From positions 1-36,552 of IMG/VR virus record IMGVR_UViG_3300047557_002212: a stretch of DNA of 36,552 nucleotides. One strand, given 5' to 3'. Shown here piece after piece: positions 2,696-18,000 of the stretch. The DNA is from a virus. The notes beneath the pieces were generated by a model, which searched no databases, had not been told where the DNA came from, and worked only from the letters and a program-made list of their open reading frames with translations. The position numbers and the translations under genes were made by a program. Each line of letters starts with the position of its first letter. Within the stretch, counting starts at the first letter, position 1.

Positions 2696-5600
2696 ATGAA
2701 AAGTAGAGGACAGATACAGAGCGAGATTGATAGTTATATCATAGCCAATAATCAACAACTAATAACAGCACAGCAAGTAAATCTAATACTTACTGATATA
2801 AATGATTCCACTTACAATCAAGTTAGTGATAGTATTAGTGGAGGACTAAATAACTTTTCTAATGGGGACACTTACCTTGTTGGTGCCACTGTAATCTATG
2901 ATGGTTATATTTGGAAAGCAACATCTGCTAATGGACCTGGTAGTTTTAATGAAAGTGATTGGACTAAAATACAAAAGTTGCGTGTAGCAACTGATAGAGC
3001 AACTATTCTATCACTTATTTCTAATAATAAGTTATTAGCAGGTTCTATGTATGGTATGACTGCTTCAACTATAAATGTTTGGGCTGTTGATACAAATGCC
3101 ATATCAAGTTTAGCATATAAGACATCTACTAATGAAATTGGAACATATGATATAAACACTGATACATTTACAGTGCTTTCATCAGGTCCAGTAGGAGCAA
3201 CAGGAGCACAAGGTTTTACTGGACCGCAAGGTGATATGGGACCGCAAGGTAATACAGGACCGCAAGGTTTTACAGGAAATCAAGGAGCAACAGGAGTTCA
3301 AGGACCTACTGGCGTTCAAGGTTCAACTGGACCACAAGGAAGTATTGGACCAATAGGACCTGGTGGAGATGTTGCTTATTATGGTGTATTTTATAGTGAT
3401 GAATCACAACAAAACTCTGGTGGTGAAAATCCAGTTTATTTTAATCAAACAGACAATACTAATGGTATAACTAACAATTTTAGTGGCATAATAATAGATT
3501 ATGCTGGTATATACAAAATAAATTCCACATTACAATTTACAAAAGCAGATACATCACAAGATTTATTTAATGTATGGTTAAAGATTGATGGGGTAAATGT
3601 TCCATATTCTAACACTGCTTACACATTAGAAAGTGTAAATTCTGCTATGAGAATAAATTATTCTTATATTGTAAATGTTTCTGCTGGAAGTGAAGTTCAA
3701 CTATGTTGGAGTTCTCCTGACTTGGCAATGGAATTGACTACATTAGGGACACAATCAAACCCAGACAGACCAGAACAATCATCAGCATATATTGATGTGA
3801 GTAAGATTGTTTATAGTGGCTTTGAGGGTTTTGCTGGTAGTCCAGGTTATTTCTTGATTGCTTATAGTAATACTACCCAAACTAATCCTGTTGCTAATAC
3901 AGCAAACTATATGACTTTCTCTAATGTTGTTTCCAATCAAGCAATCAACTTATTGAATAATAAAGAAATTCAGTTTGATTATGAGGGTGTATATAACATA
4001 CAATTTTCAGCCCAAGCACAAAAAACAACTACTGGTGATGATGAGTTAGACATTTGGTTTAGAAAAAATGGTAATGATATACCAAACTCTAATACCACTA
4101 TGATGCTCCATAGTAATCCAGGTAAGGCTGTTCCAAGTTGGAACTTTATGCTACAAGCAAATGCTGGTGATTATGTAGAGATTATGTGGAGTTCCGCTGA
4201 TACTACTATGGAGTTTTTAGCAGTAGGGACACAATCATCACCAACAAGACCTGAAATACCATCAATCATACTCACAGTGGGACAACAACAATTTATAGGT
4301 TCTACTGGACCTGTTGGTGGAACTGGAACACAAGGACCTACTGGACTACAAGGTTTTACAGGACCACAGGGTTTCACAGGACCACAGGGAAATACTGGCT
4401 TTCAAGGTTCTACTGGACCACAAGGAAATACAGGAGTTCAAGGACCTACTGGCGTTCAAGGTGAAACAGGAGCACAAGGTCCAAGAGGATTTCAAGGTTG
4501 GACTGGACCACAAGGAGATTTAGGACCACAAGGTAATACAGGAGTTCAAGGATTCACTGGACCACAAGGTAATACAGGATTTCAAGGTGAAACTGGACCA
4601 CAAGGTAATACAGGAGTTCAAGGACCTACTGGTTTTCAAGGTGGAACAGGACCACAAGGTCCTGCTGGTTCTGGCTCAACACAAAATCTTACAAGTGTCC
4701 TTACAACTGGTGCTACTGCTATGTGGAACGCTATTGGTGGTAATAACTATGTAGTTCAACTTACAGATGGTTCTAACATCGCTGGTGTTAAAGGAGATAA
4801 TTTTGATAGTTCAAGAACAGGAACAAAAGTATTAAATTTAGACGGACAATACGGAGTTAAACTTGGTGAAAATGCTTATGATTATATTGACCCATCACCA
4901 ATAACTAATCAAGGAGCAGTTTATTATGCTAAAACAAATATAAATCAACAATCAAGTATTGAGGCTGGTTTTAATGGTGTGGGTAGTAATGATTCTAAAT
5001 CTAACTTTTATGTAGGTCGTATTTCTAATGTAAGTTCCGGACCTGATGTAATAGCACAAACAAAATATGTGATGGGTCCCCTTTCAAATGACCCATATTA
5101 TTCAGCGCGACTACAACTTGCTTCTACAACAGATACATCAAATCTTGCTGACTATGGAATAGGACCTTACGCACAATTCACACTTGATAATAACAATCAA
5201 ACCACATCAACAATTTTAACCTTAAAAGGTGGTAATATAGGTAATCTATATTCAGTAGAGACAAGACCCAGTTTTGAGGTTTCAATTACTGATACAATAG
5301 GTAATAGTGATTTAACTATTGGTGGAGATAATTTAACCATAAATAGTGGTGGAACTTTAAGTTTGGTTTCTACTGGTGCTATACAACTACAACCAGGGGG
5401 TTATTTAGGTGTATTAGGTGATATACCTGTAAATCAAGGAAATGGTGGAGACATTGCTTGGGCTACACCGGCAGCAGGCGCACTATATCTTGATTCATCA
5501 CAACTTGAAGGCTCAGTCCAAACATCAATAAATCAACTTGTAGTGAGTGATGGAGCGGCTTTTACCCCAAGTGTGAGTGGTGTTTCAAAAACTTATGTAG

Positions 5601-6451
5601 GTCTTGATGGGATAAGTATTGAAAAAGGTGCTTTACATCTTATCAACGATGTTTCAAGCCCTACAACAGGTAAAATAACACTAACAGGTTTAACTGTATC
5701 ATCATCTAACTATACTTTATTCTTACCACTTGCTAATGATACACTTGTTAGTAGAAATTTGAGTGAAAACCTTGCTAATAAAAATATACAAACTTCTACT
5801 TTTGATGGTGGTTCAATTGGGTTAAATACACTTGTCCCACTCTATAATGTTGGTGTTGCTGCTGGTAATACCGCTGGTGATATGTTATTTAGGAACACAA
5901 GTGATAATATGTCTCGTTTAGCAATAGGTTCTGCTTCTGCTATGATGGTTGTTGGAACTGCTGGAAATGCTCCAACTTGGGAAAGAAGGTTGTTTTCAAC
6001 TACAACAAATGGTCCAAGTAGAACTGGAACTACTGGTGAAACTTTCTCAAATGCTATTCTAATACCTGCTGGTAGTGTTAGAGTAGGTGATATAGTTGAG
6101 TTTAATGTTAGAGTAAGAAAGACAGGAACAGCAGGCACTACTACACTACGATTCTATATTGGAACAAGTGAAACTACACTTGGAACAGCAATGGCCGTGA
6201 CGGGTGCGTTTGCTGCTACTAACATAACTATACAAATGTTGAGAACAGCAGCAGTAAAATCATCTACAAGCACAGAGGTATTTGGAACTTCTAATGCCTT
6301 GACTATGGACGATGGGCAAGGTTCTACCATAAACGTGAGTTCGTTAAATATAGATTGGAGCGGAGATAGGTGGTTTCAGGTGTCCAGTCAAGCAAGTAGT
6401 GCGGCTGATACTATATTCACATCTTATATGATGGTAAGAATAAATAGATAA
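2696..6451 (+). CDS. Large collagen-like tail fibre with tandem C1q-like domains
   Basis: At 1251 residues this is the largest protein in the window. Domains in order: residues 1-45 share the N-terminus of the preceding gene; 50-90 form a carbohydrate-binding-like module ([16 protein letters not shown] ... DW); 164-224 are collagen-like Gly-X-Y repeats; about 226-375 and 384-530 are two related jelly-roll (C1q/TNF-like) domains sharing a GTQS-P-RPE ending; 535-660 is a second collagen-like block; about 660-1080 is a long fibre shaft; the last ~140 residues are beta-rich and probably the receptor-binding tip. It should be a trimeric fibre. Domain names are from pattern recognition. Confidence 0.8.
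3185..3367 (+). repeat. Collagen-like Gly-X-Y repeat block 1
   Basis: About 20 in-frame Gly-X-Y triplets ([12 protein letters not shown] types), encoded by near-identical 9-nt units such as GGACCGCAA. It separates the N-terminal modules from the first C1q-like domain. Confidence 0.85.
4298..4675 (+). repeat. Collagen-like Gly-X-Y repeat block 2
   Basis: About 42 Gly-X-Y triplets dominated by [15 protein letters not shown] combinations, with near-identical DNA units of 9-18 nt. Blocks of this kind readily gain or lose units by recombination, so length may vary among relatives. Confidence 0.85.
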
Positions 6452-6890: not shown

Positions 6891-7487
6891 ATGAAACAAA
6901 AAGATTGGAAAGGTGGTAAAAATACATTTAGGAGTTTAGGTGCTTCTAACCACGCATTAGAAACAAGAGAACAACACGACTACTACGCAACAGAGCCAAA
7001 GGCAGTTGAGTTATTAGTAGATATACTACCATTTAATAATAAGATTTGGGAGTGTGCTTGTGGTGAGGGACATTTAAGTGAAGCCCTTATCAAAAAAGGT
7101 TTTCAAGTTAAATCAACTGACTTGATTGATAGAGGTTATGGAACTGGTGGTTATGACTTTCTCAATAGTAATGATACTTGGGATGGTGATATAATAACTA
7201 ATCCACCTTACAAGTTTGCTGAACCTTTTGTTGAGAAAGCACTTTCTTTAATACAAGATGGTAATAAAGTTGCTATGTTTATGGGTATTCAGTTTCTTGA
7301 AGGCAAGCGTAGGAAAGATTTTTTACAAAAGAATAATCTTAAATATGTTTTTGTTAGTTCAAGTAGATTGAATTGTGCTAAAAATGGAGATTTTAAGAAA
7401 TACTCTGGAAACTCTGCCAGATGTTATGCTTGGTATATTTGGGAAAAAGGATATGTAGGTGAAACTATTATCAAATGGTTTAACTAA
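6891..7487 (+). CDS. DNA adenine-N6 methyltransferase (NPPY type)
   Basis: A 198-residue class I SAM-dependent methyltransferase. Motif I is W-E-C-A-C-G-E-G-H-L (about residues 53-62, SAM binding) and the catalytic motif IV is DIITNPPYKFAEPF with NPPY at 104-107, typical of N6-adenine enzymes. No restriction endonuclease accompanies it, so an orphan role in protecting phage DNA or marking the genome is likely. Its 3' end overlaps the convergent gene on the minus strand by 8 nt. It has its own promoter. Confidence 0.8.
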   Translation: MKQKDWKGGKNTFRSLGASNHALETREQHDYYATEPKAVELLVDILPFNNKIWECACGEGHLSEALIKKGFQVKSTDLIDRGYGTGGYDFLNSNDTWDGDIITNPPYKFAEPFVEKALSLIQDGNKVAMFMGIQFLEGKRRKDFLQKNNLKYVFVSSSRLNCAKNGDFKKYSGNSARCYAWYIWEKGYVGETIIKWFN

Positions 7488-8115
7488 CCATATGTTTGGT
7501 TGCCACTTTTAGTTTCATTTCTGCGCTATTTAAAATTTGAGCCACTTTGTTTATATTAGTAATACCTAATAACTTTCTTATTTCATTATTGGTGTAGTTT
7601 GAGTAATACTTAAATGTAAAACAATCAAGTTCTATTTTAGTTAAAACCTCTTGGGCTACACCCATCACTTTTAAGTAAAGTTCGTGTGTATAGATTTCCT
7701 CTTTTGCTTTATCAAGTAAGACCTCCATACTATCACCTGCTATATCTATATCTCCAAAATCAATAAACTCTACACCTTTACCCCTTTCTTTTATTTCATT
7801 AGTCATAACATTAAAACTAACCATACCAAATAACTCTTTAATCTTATTTGCTATTATTGGTTTCTGTCCTCTTTCTATTTGTTTAAGTAGATTTAAGTAA
7901 GTTTGGGTGATAATCATTTTCAAATCACTATCAGTTATAGTGAAAAACCTTTTATTTTGTCTCCTTGCTTTCAAACAATTTTCATAATACTTTATTACCT
8001 TTGGTTGTAAAAACCTATCTAACATATCTTTTGTTAAATGTCTATCACTTGGTAAAGATTTGTAAATGAAAAGTAAAGGGCGTAGTTCAGGTGTTTCATA
8101 AATGTTTGATTTCAC
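7480..8115 (-). CDS. Divergent sigma-factor-like protein (candidate late transcription factor)
   Basis: A 211-residue protein starting at GTG (8115), which overlaps the stop of the upstream gene as GTGA, indicating translational coupling. Residues about 62-112 (DSDLKMIITQTYLNLLKQ ... MVSFNVMTNEIKERGKG) resemble sigma region 2, and about 150-205 (VLTKIELDCFTFKYY ... NNEIRKLLGIT) resemble the region 4 helix-turn-helix. The middle is acidic, like an ECF linker. I infer a phage sigma factor that redirects host RNA polymerase. Similarity is weak, and a generic HTH regulator is the main alternative. Confidence 0.5.
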   Translation of the reverse strand: MKSNIYETPELRPLLFIYKSLPSDRHLTKDMLDRFLQPKVIKYYENCLKARRQNKRFFTITDSDLKMIITQTYLNLLKQIERGQKPIIANKIKELFGMVSFNVMTNEIKERGKGVEFIDFGDIDIAGDSMEVLLDKAKEEIYTHELYLKVMGVAQEVLTKIELDCFTFKYYSNYTNNEIRKLLGITNINKVAQILNSAEMKLKVATKHMVS

Positions 8116-11507: not shown

Positions 11508-11807
11508 CTAACTTTCCTCCTCCCACTTTCTTTTGTCCTGACTTGAAAAAACATATTCACCAATCTTTCTTGGTTTATACTTTCCTCTCCAACCAACAGG
11601 ACGCCCTCTTTTCTTGGGCGTCTTTTTCCTTTCTTGTTCCTCCTTATGTTTGGCATCTACCTCACCATTTCTACACTCTGGACTACAATAAACATTACTT
11701 GGTGATGTAGGGTAAAACCAATTCTGGCAGTTCCTATATTTACACTGCTGCTTACCATCATATTTGTTTCCAAACATTTCCTCTAATGATACACCTAAAT
11801 ACGCCAT
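11508..11807 (-). CDS. Small zinc-finger protein with AT-hook
   Basis: A 99-residue basic protein with a Cys4 cluster at C22, C27, C41 and C45, followed by a Lys/Arg-rich stretch containing the AT-hook core RGRP (67-70) within KKRGRPVG. This combination suggests binding to AT-rich DNA. It is the last gene of the replication-like operon, one base after the preceding gene. The precise role is unknown. Confidence 0.65.
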   Translation of the reverse strand: MAYLGVSLEEMFGNKYDGKQQCKYRNCQNWFYPTSPSNVYCSPECRNGEVDAKHKEEQERKKTPKKRGRPVGWRGKYKPRKIGEYVFSSQDKRKWEEES

Positions 11808-11808
11808 C

Positions 11809-12066
11809 TCAAATCTTTGTTATTTTTCCATCTAAAAAGTGTCTAAACTCACTTACACTGAAAGGTATTTCAAACCCACATTTAGTCCAATCATCAACAA
11901 ACTTTTTGTAGTAGCCATATTCTTTGTAATAAGATGCTCTGTATTCTTTTTGTTGAGCGAGGTTTTCTGCTTGGTAAGCCTTCATTTTTTCTTTTAGTTT
12001 TGTTTTGTTTTTCTCATAGTATGTCTCCATATAATTCATTAGTTTTTTGTGTGAATACAAATCCAT
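11809..12066 (-). CDS. Small basic hypothetical protein
   Basis: Up to 85 residues, Lys/Tyr-rich, with a long helix (YYEKNKTKLKEKMKAYQAENLAQQKEY); not recognised. The first ATG (12066) gives a 53-nt overlap with the upstream gene. In-frame ATGs at 12039 and 12030 would shorten this, so the start is uncertain. It sits between two zinc-finger genes and may bind nucleic acid. Confidence 0.55.
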   Translation of the reverse strand: MDLYSHKKLMNYMETYYEKNKTKLKEKMKAYQAENLAQQKEYRASYYKEYGYYKKFVDDWTKCGFEIPFSVSEFRHFLDGKITKI

Positions 12067-12313
12067 AACCCTCTTTAATCAATAATCTTATTTCTTGTTC
12101 TGTTAGTTTTTTCAAGATATACCTTACACCATCGTGTGTAATAACTGCGTCTCTGTATTTGAGTTTGGTATAATCTTGATGTTTTCTACTTGTTTGGTTT
12201 TTCTCTCTACCTGCTTGTCTCCTACAATCTTGGCAATCACTTGAACGCTTACCATTATTTTGAAAGTAAAACTCATCATCAGTCAAGTCCCTTTTACATA
12301 TCTTACATATCAT
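12014..12313 (-). CDS. Small zinc-knuckle protein (99 aa)
   Basis: Starts MICKICKRDLTDDEFY with a C3-x2-C6 ... C27-x2-C30 cluster, the pattern of short phage proteins in which a CxxC pair precedes an F-Y-x-N segment and a second CxxC (often beside HNH modules). No H-N-H residues are visible, so it is probably a DNA-binding knuckle rather than a nuclease. It overlaps the end of the polymerase-like gene by 11 nt. Confidence 0.6.
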   Translation of the reverse strand: MICKICKRDLTDDEFYFQNNGKRSSDCQDCRRQAGREKNQTSRKHQDYTKLKYRDAVITHDGVRYILKKLTEQEIRLLIKEGYGFVFTQKTNELYGDIL

Positions 12314-13538
12314 TATTGATTTCTATTTTTTGTATGTGTAGTTTGAATAAAGGGTATTTGTCTTTAATCATTTTAACTACACTATCAGCGTGTTTTTCCT
12401 TTACTATAAATGAGTCGTGTATAGGTAAGCAGAAATCTACCTCATCTGGCATTTGTTTGTAAAACTCATCTACCCAAATGTTTGCTTCTCTCCTTTGTAA
12501 ATGTGAAGCCCTCCTATTTTCTCTAACTAAACTTTTCCAATAGACAACCTCGTCAAAATAACTATCAAGGAATTCACAACACCTTTTTATTTCAAGTTGC
12601 GTCATAATCTGCTCTTTACAAGCAGGTTTGTTAGGTTCCAATCTTGATAGTAGTTTATCTCCTAACTTATCTTTCCAAGAACCACCAAAAACCCATATCA
12701 ACCACAATCTTTTAGAGTTTTTACTACATAATCTTATGTGTGTAATACCCTTTTCATACAATAGATTACTTAAATGGGTGTAAAAGTAAGTATCTCCAAG
12801 TATTGCTTCCCTATATTTAGGGCAAGATATGTTAAATTCCTCCATATCCATTAGTAATTGTGTAGGTTGGGAACATTTACAATCTACAACAACCAGTTTA
12901 TCTTTGTGTTTGTAGTTTTGTATAACCTCTCTCCATTTTGTAATACCTTTCCAATAGATTCTTAAACCAGATGTTCCTTTATGATAGTTGCCTTCACCAG
13001 TAATGCCTATGTCTGCTAATGATGAAAGTAGTAAGTTAAAGTTAGTATTACCAACCTGTTTTAACTCTACTGGTATTTCTACCCATTTATGTTTAGAGTT
13101 TTTCATTTCTGTATCAAACAAATACCACCACCTTTCACAAAATCTATATGACTTGGAAATGTGTAATGAGGTAGAAAATGATTCTTTCTTTCTTGTTTTG
13201 AATAAATCCTTTTCATCTTGAACCTCAACAGATAATGCCTCTAATACTCCCCACTCTTTTAAAGGGAATAGGTATTTGTAGTAATAAGGAGTAATCACCT
13301 CTTTGTAAAAATCTGTTGGTAGTTCAATAAAATCACTTACTTTCTTTTGTTGTTTGTAAAAGTCAAGTTGATATAAATGTAATACAGAATAAATACCATT
13401 TCTAAAAGCATTTTGGGACTTTTTCCCTTTTTTAAGGTATTTTTTTAAGGTTTCACTACCAGTATTAGTTTTTAGGTGATAATCTATGTAATCAACTAAT
13501 ACTTGTGGTAGAAATGTCCTTGTTTCTCTTTTTTCCAT
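12303..13538 (-). CDS. Divergent family A polymerase-like protein (candidate phage replication polymerase)
   Basis: A 411-residue protein. Residues 215-230 (LVVVDCKCSQPTQLLM) match palm motif A of Pol I/T7-RNAP-like enzymes, with D219 as metal ligand. A GDTYFYTHLSNLL segment (248-260), then K276/R277 and FGG (284-286), sit where motif B is expected. LQRREANIWV (347-356) and the motif C-like PIHDSFIV (372-379, H374-D375) complete the palm. No exonuclease domain is visible, and the protein is far shorter than Pol I. It is the only replication enzyme candidate. Its start overlaps the homing endonuclease stop by one base (TAATG). Confidence 0.55.
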   Translation of the reverse strand: MEKRETRTFLPQVLVDYIDYHLKTNTGSETLKKYLKKGKKSQNAFRNGIYSVLHLYQLDFYKQQKKVSDFIELPTDFYKEVITPYYYKYLFPLKEWGVLEALSVEVQDEKDLFKTRKKESFSTSLHISKSYRFCERWWYLFDTEMKNSKHKWVEIPVELKQVGNTNFNLLLSSLADIGITGEGNYHKGTSGLRIYWKGITKWREVIQNYKHKDKLVVVDCKCSQPTQLLMDMEEFNISCPKYREAILGDTYFYTHLSNLLYEKGITHIRLCSKNSKRLWLIWVFGGSWKDKLGDKLLSRLEPNKPACKEQIMTQLEIKRCCEFLDSYFDEVVYWKSLVRENRRASHLQRREANIWVDEFYKQMPDEVDFCLPIHDSFIVKEKHADSVVKMIKDKYPLFKLHIQKIEINNDM

Positions 13539-14002
13539 TAGATTTTGTGATGGATTTTCTTTGCTTGTAAATATGCTTCCCTCGCTTCTGCTTCTGTGTT
13601 AAAATAACCAAGACATTTGGATTTGTAATTTACAGAAATAGTTGCTTGCCACTTTTTTGTATTTTTATGATATGAATAACCTTTTGCGTCTGTATTATGT
13701 AAATTTTGCTGTGTTGTAATTTTTCTTAAATTGATAAAACTATTGTCTAAACTATTTCGGTTTATGTGGTCTATTACAAAAGGCTTTTCAACTAATTCAC
13801 CAGTAGCCAAATACCAAACAAAATGATGGTGATACAACTTATTGATTTTATCATTATGTCTAAAACATATGATTCTATAACCAACACTATTTGTAGAAAT
13901 TATTTCTTTACCAAATTTATTACACACTTTACCTGTGGTTAAATCTGCTGTAAAACCTTTTTTTATCAAGTATTGTATTTTTTCAAGTTTAGTCATCTCC
14001 AA
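13538..14002 (-). CDS. HNH homing endonuclease with AP2 domain
   Basis: A 154-residue protein. An HNH module spans about residues 57-103: HHH at 58-60, VIDHINRN with H79, and N91 in the NLRKIT motif. It is followed by an AP2-like DNA-binding domain (108-149, GYSYHKNTKKWQATI ... GYFNTEAEAREAY). This is the usual layout of free-standing phage HNH homing endonucleases, which lie next to conserved replication genes and cut relatives lacking them. It overlaps the upstream gene by 14 nt. Confidence 0.85.
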   Translation of the reverse strand: MEMTKLEKIQYLIKKGFTADLTTGKVCNKFGKEIISTNSVGYRIICFRHNDKINKLYHHHFVWYLATGELVEKPFVIDHINRNSLDNSFINLRKITTQQNLHNTDAKGYSYHKNTKKWQATISVNYKSKCLGYFNTEAEAREAYLQAKKIHHKI

Positions 14003-14423
14003 TAAGTTTGTTTATCTTGGAATTCCTAATGATACTTTGTGGTTCAAAAACTTGTAAATCCTTTGTATCATTTTCTAATTTCTTAAATTCCTCATCACCA
14101 CGCCAGTATTTAGAAACTGGTTTATTGTTTATACTCCAAACAATAGACATTACCTCTTGCCACTCATTATGTGGTTGAATAGTTTTGGTAAGTTGTCCGT
14201 CCCAATGCGGTGTATCACAATTTGCTGCTGTGTAAATGAAATCCTCACAATCTCTACTTTGTGCTTCTGTATCTAAAAACTCTCCAAAATCTTCAAAATC
14301 TTCTTTTGTGTCCCCATATTCTTTTAACATTTCAAACATTTCTTTTTCTGTTAGGCAAAACTCTTGATAAACAGGAACTATTTGATACTCTGTTCGTGTA
14401 AGTAAGTATTTCTTGGATTTCAT
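13989..14423 (-). CDS. Acidic hypothetical protein (144 aa), first gene of the replication operon
   Basis: A Glu/Asp-rich 144-residue protein, not recognised, with Trp-containing segments (HNEWQEVMSIVWSINNK, SKYWRGDEEF). It starts at 14423; the ACTAAATA motif at 14448-14455 on the same strand precedes it. Being first in the operon with the polymerase-like protein, it may act in replication. That is context only. Confidence 0.6.
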   Translation of the reverse strand: MKSKKYLLTRTEYQIVPVYQEFCLTEKEMFEMLKEYGDTKEDFEDFGEFLDTEAQSRDCEDFIYTAANCDTPHWDGQLTKTIQPHNEWQEVMSIVWSINNKPVSKYWRGDEEFKKLENDTKDLQVFEPQSIIRNSKINKLIGDD

Positions 14424-14447
14424 ATATATTTGTTTTATATATTATTA

Positions 14448-14455
14448 TATTTAGT
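14448..14455 (-). promoter_or_regulatory. ACTAAATA late-type motif (replication operon)
   Basis: On the minus strand, AAACTAAATATAAT lies 24 nt upstream of the ATG at 14423. It continues as ACTAAATATAAT, as at 2682 and 20186. Confidence 0.45.
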
Positions 14456-14482
14456 TTCCCTTAAAGGTTTAGTTAGGTATAA

Positions 14483-14511
14483 GGGAAACCCTCCTTTGAG
14501 GGAGGTTTCCC
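14483..14511. other. Strong hairpin upstream of replication operon
   Basis: GGGAAACC (14483-14490) pairs with GGTTTCCC (14504-14511); the inner TCC/GGA adds pairs with one bulged C. A further TTTCCCTT copy at 14455-14462 can pair alternatively with AAGGGAAA at 14481-14488. This is an attenuator-like pair of exclusive stems ahead of the operon. Confidence 0.6.
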
Positions 14512-14790
14512 AACCAGAATAGTAAAATTAGGTATAAAATAGGTAGTTGTTTATGGTGTGTGCCAAAACAATTATAGTCAGTTAAAGTGTTTAAGATAGT
14601 CAAGAAAGTCAAGAAATACAGGGAGGGAGAAAAAGACAGTTATGACTTTATGTTGCGCTTATTCTATGTATGAGTTGCGCTGATTGTGGTTAGATAAGTT
14701 GAGTTTGGTTGATTGGTTGAGTAAGTATAAGCAAGCGCTTTTGGGAGGGATAAACCAAAAAAAAGATTAAATAATTTATTTTTTATTTTA

Positions 14791-14822
14791 TTTGGACTTT
14801 TCCCACCACTTGACTACCTTTG
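14791..14822 (+). promoter_or_regulatory. Bacteroidota-type promoter inside the non-coding region (plus)
   Basis: TTTG at 14791-14794, exactly 20 nt, TACCTTTG at 14815-14822, then TATT-GTG. It is a full match to the early promoters but no known gene follows. Confidence 0.8.
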
Positions 14823-14826
14823 TATT

Positions 14827-14883
14827 GTGGGAATCTGTGGTGATTGGGTTGATTACTCACACCACGTGTTGCCGGCGATTTAA
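14827..14883 (+). CDS. Possible 18-residue leaderless peptide
   Basis: GTG at 14827 occupies the position that ATG has in other leaderless early genes (TTTGTATT-GTG). The frame runs 18 sense codons to TAA at 14881-14883 and includes W-V-D-Y-S-H-H. It may be a leader peptide or a coincidence on a structured RNA. Confidence 0.25.
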   Translation: MGICGDWVDYSHHVLPAI

Positions 14884-14926
14884 CCACACCTTTGCTCGGC
14901 ACTGCTGTGATTTACTCTAACAGCAT
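14829..14926. ncRNA. Candidate structured RNA between convergent promoters
   Basis: Three consecutive hairpins: GTGGTG/CACCAC (14837-14842 with 14860-14865), TGCCG/CGGCA (14870-14874 with 14897-14901) and TGCTGT/ACAGCA (14903-14908 with 14920-14925). This stretch is visibly richer in G+C than its surroundings. It lies just downstream of a complete promoter on either side, so RNA can start at both ends and run through it. No U-tract terminator follows. No known RNA family recognised. Confidence 0.4.
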
Positions 14927-14928
14927 TA

Positions 14929-14960
14929 CAAAGATACGAACTTACTTTGACTTATCCAAA
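14929..14960 (-). promoter_or_regulatory. Bacteroidota-type promoter inside the non-coding region (minus)
   Basis: Read on the minus strand: TTTG at 14960-14957, 20 nt, TATCTTTG at 14936-14929, then TAATG. It faces the plus-strand promoter at 14791 and could supply a roughly 500-nt leader to the replication operon starting at 14423. Confidence 0.78.
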
Positions 14961-14961
14961 T

Positions 14962-15117
14962 CTATTCACATTTATTTCCATCTATTACATCTATTCACAT
15001 CCACTCCCACCAATCACATCTATCACATTACTCAAACTCCTCTGTGTTGATTGGTGTGAGCCCTGTGATTGATTGGAACCCATCACAACCAGTCCCAACC
15101 AATAAGAACTATCACAT
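14962..15117. repeat. Iteron-like repeats CTAT(T)CACAT
   Basis: Copies at 14962-14971, 14982-14990, 14991-15000, 15020-15028 and 15109-15117, with further AATCACAT and CATCACAA fragments between them. CTATTCACA is one base away from the relaxed DnaA box TTATNCACA. Clusters like this are typical of origins, but protein binding is inference. Confidence 0.5.
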
Positions 15118-15147
15118 TAGTCCCAACTAATCCCATCTATAAGACAG

Positions 15148-15206
15148 AATTATATTTGGTATGATTTAGTTAGATAAATCCCCACAAAATTATATTTGGT
15201 ATGATT
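15148..15206 (+). repeat. Two 19-nt perfect direct repeats
   Basis: AATTATATTTGGTATGATT at 15148-15166 and again at 15188-15206, start-to-start distance 40 nt (about four helical turns). The second copy overlaps the left arm of the inverted repeat at 15179. Confidence 0.85.
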
Positions 15207-15245
15207 ATTTCAGTAAAATCTAAACAAAATATAATTTTGTGGGGA
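15179..15245. repeat. 19-bp perfect inverted repeat
   Basis: Arms 15179-15197 (TCCCCACAAAATT...) and 15227-15245 (...AATTTTGTGGGGA) are perfect complements over 19 bp, with a 29-nt loop containing GGTATGATT. It could be a cruciform, protein-binding site or terminator of the minus-strand early block. Confidence 0.8.
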
Positions 15246-15297
15246 CACGGGGGGTGGGGGGTGATTATTCTTACCCTTTGGGGTTTGGTGGGTTGGG
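15241..15297 (+). other. G-rich tract with G-quadruplex potential
   Basis: G4, G6 and G6 runs at 15241-15261, then G4, GG, GGG and GGG between 15280 and 15297, in an otherwise AT-rich genome. It sits between the inverted repeat and the end of the gene at 15332. Confidence 0.5.
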
Positions 15298-15331
15298 TAG
15301 TATCCACAAAAATTTTAACCAATAAATTGTA

Positions 15332-16408: not shown

Positions 16409-16948
16409 TTATTTTACAATAATTTCATTACCCCATACATCCCAACCTTGTCTTTCCTTTCTGGCAAACATTTCAAGTTTGTTTTGTGTAGGAAACATTT
16501 TAGTTATTCTATCATAAACCTCTTGTGGTTTTTCACTATGTTTAGTTCTTTTAGAAACCACCATTTGTCTTTCATTTCTACTACCTCTTGGTTGTGGTAT
16601 TTTACCTTTTTTAAATACAAGGACAGGTTCAGTTTGAGTCATAGTATAAAAGCCAGGGTTTAAGGCTTGTTTGTCCCAAATGAAAGAGGTATGTGTATAG
16701 GTAAAACCAAGTGCTTCACCAAACTCTATTGCTTGGTTTAGGTGCGGCCAAGTAGCCCACATAAAGATTAGACAATCAGTATCAGCCCACTCTTGTATTA
16801 GTGGTTTGAATTCTTTAATCATATCTTTTACTTTCATAGTTGGGTAGTGTGTTATAGCACCACCAGTTTCATCACCACCTTTTCCATTATGTTGTGTTTG
16901 TCCTTTATAGTCCCAAGGCGGGTCCATTGCTATAATCTGGTATTTCAT
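16409..16948 (-). CDS. MT-A70-family DNA adenine-N6 methyltransferase
   Basis: A 179-residue protein beginning MKYQIIAMDPPWDYKG with the catalytic DPPW at 9-12, diagnostic for MT-A70-type enzymes. It also has the family features CLIFMWATWPHLNQAIEF, W-D-K after the strand, and a C-terminal R-T-K-H-S-E-K-P-Q-E-V-Y motif. The length is normal for phage members. It overlaps the upstream methyltransferase by 4 nt (ATGA), so both are translated from one mRNA. Confidence 0.88.
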   Translation of the reverse strand: MKYQIIAMDPPWDYKGQTQHNGKGGDETGGAITHYPTMKVKDMIKEFKPLIQEWADTDCLIFMWATWPHLNQAIEFGEALGFTYTHTSFIWDKQALNPGFYTMTQTEPVLVFKKGKIPQPRGSRNERQMVVSKRTKHSEKPQEVYDRITKMFPTQNKLEMFARKERQGWDVWGNEIIVK

Positions 16949-18000
16949 AATTTAAAGTTTTCTAATCTCCAATAAAAACCACCACAAGTTGTATGTCCCT
17001 CTCTTGAATAACACCTCATTATATCCTCACCACATAAACCAGTTTCTTTTTCAGCAGCAGTATAAGCAGCATAGGATTTAATAGGATTTCCATTTAAGTC
17101 ATATTGATTTACCCAAAGGAATTCATCATTACTACCAGATAATCTTTTCTCACTAAAAGTAGCATACATTTCATTTAACTCAAAACCTATGTAATCTCTT
17201 TTTAGTTCTTTACAAGCAATACCTGTTGTAGCAATGCCAGAAAATGTATCTATGACTAAATCACCCTCATCTGTTAAAAGTTCTATAAAGAATAGTGGTA
17301 GTTCTTTATGGAAAGGTGCTGGGTGTTTGATTGTATTATCTTTTGAAGCAGAAGCAGTGTTAAACCTAAATACATTATCAGGTCTTACTTTTTCTGGCGC
17401 AACCTTTTCTTTGTAGGTATGATTGGCTTGTCCGTCTTTGAAAGATTTTTTGTGTCTATACTTTACTCTTTTTTTCTTTATTCTTGAACCCTCCTCTGTA
17501 AAACCTACATTATCATCAAACTCATAGTCATATCTTTTTACACTACTATCTTTTGGTTCTTGTAAAACTCTATCCATATAGAATTTCATTTGTTTGTAAT
17601 CTTTACAAAAGTGAAATAGGTATTCAGTCATATTCCTAAATCTTTTAGGAGCACCATTAGGAATACCAGATTTTTTATGCCAAAAGTATTTGTCGTAAAG
17701 TAATAACTTATTTCTGGTAGAGTTCTTGTAAAGTAATTCCTCTATAAAGGTTGTTCTATAACCTTTTTCTGTTTTATCATTTATGTTTAAGATAAAACTA
17801 CCACTTGGCTTTAATACACGCCAGATTTCATCAAAAAGTGGTAAAATCCAATCACAATACTCTGTTGATTTAGTTATACTTACTTTTTTTCCATAAGAAA
17901 CTATATCTACATAAGGGGGACTGGTTATTATTAAATCTACTGAATTGTTAGGGATTGTCTTGATTAAATCAAAACAATCCCCTATTAAAATTTTCTCCAT
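16945..18000 (-). CDS. Beta-class DNA methyltransferase fused to a C-terminal NUMOD-like domain
   Basis: A 351-residue protein. Catalytic motif IV SPPY lies at 27-30 (DLIITSPPYVD) and SAM-binding motif I is D-T-F-S-G-I-A-T-T-G (251-260), a variant of DPFxGSGTT. This IV-before-I order defines beta-class N4-cytosine/N6-adenine enzymes. Residues about 296-346 (WVNQYDLNGNPIKSYAAYTAAEKETG ... GGFYWRLE) match the NUMOD DNA-binding module usually found on HNH/GIY homing endonucleases. The fusion could alter target recognition. It is preceded by ACTAAATA rather than an early promoter. Confidence 0.82.
   Translation of the reverse strand: MEKILIGDCFDLIKTIPNNSVDLIITSPPYVDIVSYGKKVSITKSTEYCDWILPLFDEIWRVLKPSGSFILNINDKTEKGYRTTFIEELLYKNSTRNKLLLYDKYFWHKKSGIPNGAPKRFRNMTEYLFHFCKDYKQMKFYMDRVLQEPKDSSVKRYDYEFDDNVGFTEEGSRIKKKRVKYRHKKSFKDGQANHTYKEKVAPEKVRPDNVFRFNTASASKDNTIKHPAPFHKELPLFFIELLTDEGDLVIDTFSGIATTGIACKELKRDYIGFELNEMYATFSEKRLSGSNDEFLWVNQYDLNGNPIKSYAAYTAAEKETGLCGEDIMRCYSREGHTTCGGFYWRLENFKL

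Follow-up and report, generated by a model that had tools for sequence, protein, structure and literature searches.

The transposon-virus polymerase (TV-Pol) family was described by Iyer, Abhiman and Aravind in 2008, and its members were predicted to be prim-pols (PMC2579912). A D5-like helicase is their usual link but is not required; standalone forms were described as well (PMC2579912). According to a 2020 paper, biochemical characterization of TV-Pols was then limited to CcPol: it extends primers using dNTPs and, with its partner MP, primes de novo on single-stranded DNA (PMC7581432). Without MP, CcPol performs primer extension only (PMC7581432, PMC10061031). The MP proteins of PolA-SSB primases were recognized only by structure prediction (PMC7581432, PMC10061031). 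Finally, divPolA2, corresponding to phrog_4756, was reported by Yutin et al. in 2024 (PMC11348598).

The window, by which we mean the whole stretch of DNA analyzed, spans the 36,552 bases of a virus contig from IMG/VR. Its ends are not closed, and inspection of these revealed no ORF crossing the junction. The record carries a myovirus structural module comprising terminase, portal, protease, capsid, sheath, and tape measure, and a presumed tail protein of 1251 residues (2696-6451, plus strand) has collagen-like GPQG/GxT repeats in two blocks. The C-terminal part of a 211-residue protein (7480-8115, minus strand) is weakly similar to sigma factors, and sigma-like proteins recur among related phages. 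Two adjoining DNA methyltransferases, one of the MT-A70 type and the second of the N6_N4_Mtase type, are encoded at 16409-18000 (minus strand); proteins related to the second occur in most of the phages as well as in several chromosomal loci. TAnnTTTG boxes precede several plus-strand genes of the window. Based on these boxes and on the Bacteroidota relatives of the polymerase described below, we infer a Bacteroidota host.

The polymerase, P0001, is encoded on the minus strand at 12303-13538, where the plus strand is full of stop codons. The original prediction had given these exact coordinates for a 411-residue ORF, and the motifs and residue numbers that it quoted were also right: P0001 contains D219 within VVVDCKCSQPTQLL, LQRREA, and IHDSFIV with D375. 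The motifs comprise R193 in a hairpin; motif A, which reads DCKCSQP (D219, S223, Q224, and P225); motif B (K276 and F284-G285); Q348 and E351; and motif C (H374-D375). Its placement in the TV-Pol lineage draws on the ORF, HMM scores, residue conservation, an AlphaFold2 model, and structural matches.

P0001 is the third of six minus-strand genes that form one run from 14423 to 11508. The run opens with a 144-residue protein (13989-14423) that had no notable family match in Pfam and PHROG scans. Directly upstream of P0001 lies an HNH endonuclease (13538-14002; Pfam HNH_3, E = 1.6e-10; phrog_99, E = 8.8e-37), possibly a homing endonuclease, whose stop codon overlaps the P0001 start (TAATG). The P0001 stop is in turn overlapped by the gene for a 99-residue Cys-rich protein that resembles the N-terminal part of endonuclease VII (12014-12313; weak match to phrog_1035, E = 8.6e-5), so that start/stop overlaps occur on both sides of P0001. 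The last two genes encode an 85-residue protein with no convincing family match in the same scans (11809-12066) and a second 99-residue Cys-rich protein (11508-11807) that is weakly NinG-like (Pfam NinG, E = 5.5e-4; zf-CGNR, E = 5e-4; both below the curated cut-off). None of these small neighbors matched an OB-fold family in the Pfam and PHROG scans, which MP-type proteins escape according to the PolA-SSB literature.

Used as the sole query, P0001 retrieved no relative from INPHARED phages, IMG/VR, or GTDB genomes, and it had no Pfam, NCBIfam, or PDB sequence family. Its sole credible profile match was to phrog_4756 at residues 357-394, around motif C (E = 3.6e-4), with no whole-length match to this profile. 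The divPolA2 representative, AUR84708, matches the same profile at E = 1.8e-91. Weak PDB and NCBIfam matches of P0001 to AgrA were attributed to chance, being absent with the relatives or the family profile. Relatives were reached via the terminase (TerL): a related phage, G002, encodes a 326-residue homolog, and an alignment of this protein with P0001 yielded nine IMG/VR loci and seven bacterial genome loci, Flavobacterium and Chitinophagaceae included. A later round yielded 32 IMG/VR loci, in part identical to the earlier ones. The resulting clade comprises 36 standalone relatives, mostly of 320-370 residues, from Bacteroidota phages and Flavobacterium and Chitinophagaceae chromosomes; none was found that is closer to P0001 than ~32% identity. 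A profile search of 397 genomes from the family of one Flavobacterium gave matches in 20, mostly TV-Pol-like proteins of 440-515 residues. In addition, a tblastn search of phages revealed SQP-type sequences in a pair of uncultured phages (635 and 642 kb); these unannotated records encode standalone TV-Pol-like proteins of ~410 residues (L022, 5257-6513; L023, 5272-6492).

Similarity was scored using an HMM of 14 clade members, built without P0001, and an HMM of 20 bacterial and huge-phage TV-Pols, built without the clade, with the search space set to 1000. The TV-Pol label of the latter 20 proteins rests on their motifs and the published description (PMC2579912). P0001 matched the clade HMM at E = 1.5e-30 and the TV-Pol HMM at E = 4.7e-10; among 2000 shuffled copies of its sequence, 0.012 was the best value. 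Since the HMM E-values are far better than that of the best shuffle, the similarity exceeds chance. The clade members themselves matched the TV-Pol HMM at E = 1e-14 to 1e-25. Across 56 relatives (36 from the clade and 20 TV-Pols), R193, D219, Y253, E351, and D375 are invariant, and the position of K276 is Lys or Arg. H374 is conserved in all 36 clade relatives and in 19 of the 20 TV-Pols. The RxxxK motif has its Arg in 36 of the 36 clade relatives and its Lys in 35; in P0001, the corresponding residues are S272-xxx-K276, and K273-xxx-R277 is a possible substitute. Because P0001 lacks this Arg, we term it a divergent relative of the TV-Pol lineage. The original suggestion that it might represent an undescribed subgroup goes too far: the protein belongs to the TV-Pol lineage of 2008, in which CcPol has been characterized, and its PHROG match is the divPolA2 of 2024.

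In a phylogenetic tree, phage and chromosomal copies were interleaved, so the polymerase gene has probably moved between them. P0001 forms a long branch whose exact placement is unsure. Microcystis phage LMM01 encodes, beside a transposase, a hypothetical protein with TV-Pol-like motifs discerned by eye (L021, 22746-24266, minus strand). Because its motif C reads IHNS rather than IHDS, this protein may be inactive. Comparisons by BLASTP and hhalign with individual sequences of divPolA2 and LMM01 yielded no significant similarity.

The AlphaFold2 model obtained with nine relatives had a mean pLDDT of 61, and the stretches 200-284 and 310-408 mostly scored about 77-95; the model from the P0001 sequence alone was useless (pLDDT 33). 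The order of elements in the former is palm-like: a strand at 215-221, fingers helices, and a hairpin at 370-380. Confidence is low before approximately residue 200, where the N-terminal half, which may hold the thumb of two antiparallel helices described for TV-Pols, is helical, and the hairpin around R193 is poorly modeled (pLDDT <50 at 182-193). Using VIA-align, the model superposed on Pol theta (Z = 15.0), T7 DNA polymerase (Z = 14.6), and Klenow (Z = 13.5) over ~215 residues at ~3 angstrom, and the structural matches listed were all DNA polymerases. Among predicted viral structures, the matches included divPolA2-type proteins of Rheinheimera and Aeromonas phages and, lower down, the virophage TV-Pols of Zamilon and Qinghai Lake. 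According to the model, P0001 is a palm-fold polymerase with palm and fingers, and superposition on the known polymerases suggests that D219 and D375 are adjacent.

These data bear out the family A-type palm of the original prediction (Z of 13-15); a fold without a palm was looked for, and the palm was present. The small size and lack of an exonuclease domain were likewise confirmed. The claim that there are no clear fingers did not hold, as the fingers region carries motif B. Specifically, a joint profile aligned collinearly with PolA from motif A to motif C in hhalign (E = 0.0058), in a register that places K276 on the motif B Lys of PolA and F284-G285 on YG.

In Pol I, the position corresponding to Q224 (D+5) holds the steric-gate Glu. 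Q224 at this position fits the use of dNTPs, with a motif A register that is uncertain by one or two residues, and, if the register is right, argues against P0001 being a DNA-dependent RNA polymerase of an N4 RNAP2-like or mini T7-like kind that serves phage transcription or makes RNA primers. The HDS of motif C is as in T7-type RNA polymerases, and a broad profile had N4 RNAP2 as its sole match among PDB sequences (E = 0.13), where hhalign covered motif C only. Moreover, Yutin et al. left this option open for divPolA2 (PMC11348598). T7 RNAP, however, did not align with the joint profile in hhalign, and CcPol uses dNTPs (PMC7581432). The sigma-like proteins of the phage and its relatives also fit the use of host RNA polymerase. 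Overall, we consider an RNA polymerase improbable.

In 18 phage records (the window and 17 others, some of them fragments), no match was obtained with the DnaB_C profile of DnaB-like helicases or with the D5_N and Toprim_2 profiles. This agrees with the prediction that the window has no recognizable helicase, primase, or further polymerase. P0001 and one DNA methyltransferase are the only non-structural ORFs of >250 residues at 7.5-20 kb of the window, and no MP- or SSB-like partner or processivity factor was recognized alongside P0001. In seven relatives, judged from their sequences and partial family scans, the non-structural genes of at least 200 residues appear to encode the polymerase, DNA methyltransferases, sigma-like and nuclease-like proteins, and a few unknown proteins. 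As far as sequence can tell, P0001 is the only recognizable replication protein of its phage. On this point the original prediction stood. Its term replicase names just one option for the enzyme, which may with the same or greater likelihood prime or initiate synthesis for the host replisome.

As a replicase, P0001 would be a primer-dependent, minimal Pol I-like enzyme that copies the whole genome from primers made by host primase or RNA polymerase. The DNA polymerase folds closest to the model among solved structures, the lack of another recognized polymerase in the phage, and the behavior of CcPol without MP, which merely extends primers (PMC7581432, PMC10061031), are consistent with this role. 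Nevertheless, the protein is very small and lacks proofreading, no processivity factor, helicase, or SSB was recognized alongside it, and TV-Pols were predicted to be prim-pols (PMC2579912). The data fit either this role or that of priming or initiation, and we estimate the former to be unlikely.

The polymerase gene of the clade sits in changing neighborhoods. Chromosomal copies are often near tyrosine integrases and small conserved genes (~50, 70, and 97 residues); methyltransferases also lie close to them, as does an AAA ATPase of a type known from defense systems. On sequence grounds, these integrase-polymerase loci look like small integrative elements with possible defense genes nearby. 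In these chromosomes, which are from Flavobacterium and further Bacteroidota, a tyrosine integrase and small conserved ORFs precede the polymerase gene (L024, 6399-10969; L030, 4919-8282; also L026-L029). The L024 polymerase, from Flavobacterium sp. KMS, has an intact RxxxK. Record G415, of 37.5 kb, contains one clade polymerase together with structural genes and an ORF that was judged integrase-like by eye.

Variable neighborhoods are among the features expected if P0001 were an accessory repair or recombination polymerase that is dispensable for genome replication. Others are the neighbors resembling endonuclease VII and NinG, the replacement of the RxxxK Arg by S272, and the failure to find the polymerase in G001 and G003, which are nearest by TerL and whose records are partial; a repair role was also suggested for divPolA2 (Yutin et al., PMC11348598). 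However, phages with divPolA2 have a second, regular polymerase, and none was recognized in the P0001 phage. Further, at ~28% identity P0001 keeps all other catalytic residues. Its lineage is also present in small integrase-bearing elements, for which replication would be the more probable requirement. An accessory role seems to us as improbable as that of an RNA polymerase.

An intergenic region of ~900 bases at 14430-15331 contains imperfect direct repeats and an inverted repeat. The inverted repeat is of 22 nt (15179-15200 and 15224-15245), is 95% complementary, and encloses a 23-nt loop; beside it lie a G-rich run and a pair of direct repeats of 40 nt each. The single-strand DNA fold of 15140-15270 is far better than those of shuffles (z = -5.1). 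No exact copy of the inverted repeat at 15179-15245 was found in the fetched relative loci, and Rfam gave no RNA family match. We infer from the repeats and the fold that this region is a candidate origin or regulatory site.

Given that neither a helicase nor a primase nor a second polymerase was recognized in the phage, we propose that P0001, a putative DNA-synthesizing enzyme of the TV-Pol lineage, primes or initiates phage replication and that host DnaB and Pol III continue it, a reading that we hold to be probable on balance. D219 and D375 in the palm would be the two-metal aspartates, K276 of motif B would sit in the fingers, and R193, in the segment before the palm, would correspond to the template-contacting hairpin Arg. 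The enzyme would make DNA primers or initiate synthesis at the phage origin, perhaps in the repeat region at 14.4-15.3 kb, and the fork would be handed to host DnaB and Pol III after initiation. The invariant catalytic set, the occurrence of the same gene beside integrases in chromosomal elements, and, by analogy, the priming activity of CcPol argue for such a role; S272, the lack of a recognized MP- or SSB-like partner, and the absence of the usual D5 helicase argue against it. A broader proposal, which we advance tentatively, is that the clade polymerase, mostly of ~325 residues and of 411 here, is a putative self-sufficient primer-initiator that acts without MP/SSB or helicase. It would then be a portable one-gene replication module, serving unrelated small phages of Bacteroidota, as well as small integrase-bearing elements, as their sole replication protein.

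TV-Pols have been proposed as the minimal core of polymerase family A (PMC7581432). The helicase-less clade, whose polymerase is the sole recognized replication enzyme of its phages and integrative elements, could serve as a compact model in which to study the start of DNA synthesis by a palm polymerase. The clade, which is not named in the Pfam, NCBIfam, and PHROGs libraries, would also explain how some Bacteroidota phages of 30-37 kb replicate without annotated replication genes.

P0001 shares with TV-Pols the Arg before the palm, the two palm aspartates, the motif B Lys, the SQP after the first Asp, and LQ..E. Like them, it lacks a nuclease domain, and its kind occurs as standalone proteins, with integrases close by, in viruses and mobile elements. 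In contrast to TV-Pols, the clade phages encode neither a D5 helicase nor a helicase fusion. P0001 is without the RxxxK Arg, and most clade members have 320-370 residues versus 440-515 in the TV-Pols of Flavobacteriaceae. Similarly, divPolA2 is a divergent phage family A polymerase of ~430 residues with no exonuclease, to which P0001 is connected by the weak motif C profile match and the structural matches. It is found beside a regular polymerase in large phages, whereas P0001 is the sole recognized polymerase of its phage, and significant pairwise or profile similarity between the two is absent beyond motif C. CcPol-MP of SCC elements is alike by description, being a TV-Pol with a family A catalytic domain from a mobile element and a proposed replication starter (PMC7581432, PMC10061031). 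CcPol, however, has its partner MP and a helicase in the operon and retains Pol I N-terminal remnants; no such partner or helicase was recognized for P0001.

The classical family A enzymes, Pol I/Klenow, T7 DNA polymerase, and Pol theta, have the same palm and fingers fold, and motif B lines up at its Lys and at [YF]G. Nevertheless, P0001 is 10-13% identical to them, lacks the exonuclease domain, and has SQP in place of DYSQIELR and HDS in place of HDE. Consistent with these differences, the Pfam scan gave no match to PF00476, and motif A departs from DYSQxExR. Judged by its sequence, P0001 is a standalone protein divergently related to TV-Pols, whose lineage was already known from the work of 2008, 2020, and 2024. 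What is new is a compact, helicase-less TV-Pol clade in Bacteroidota phages and integrative elements.
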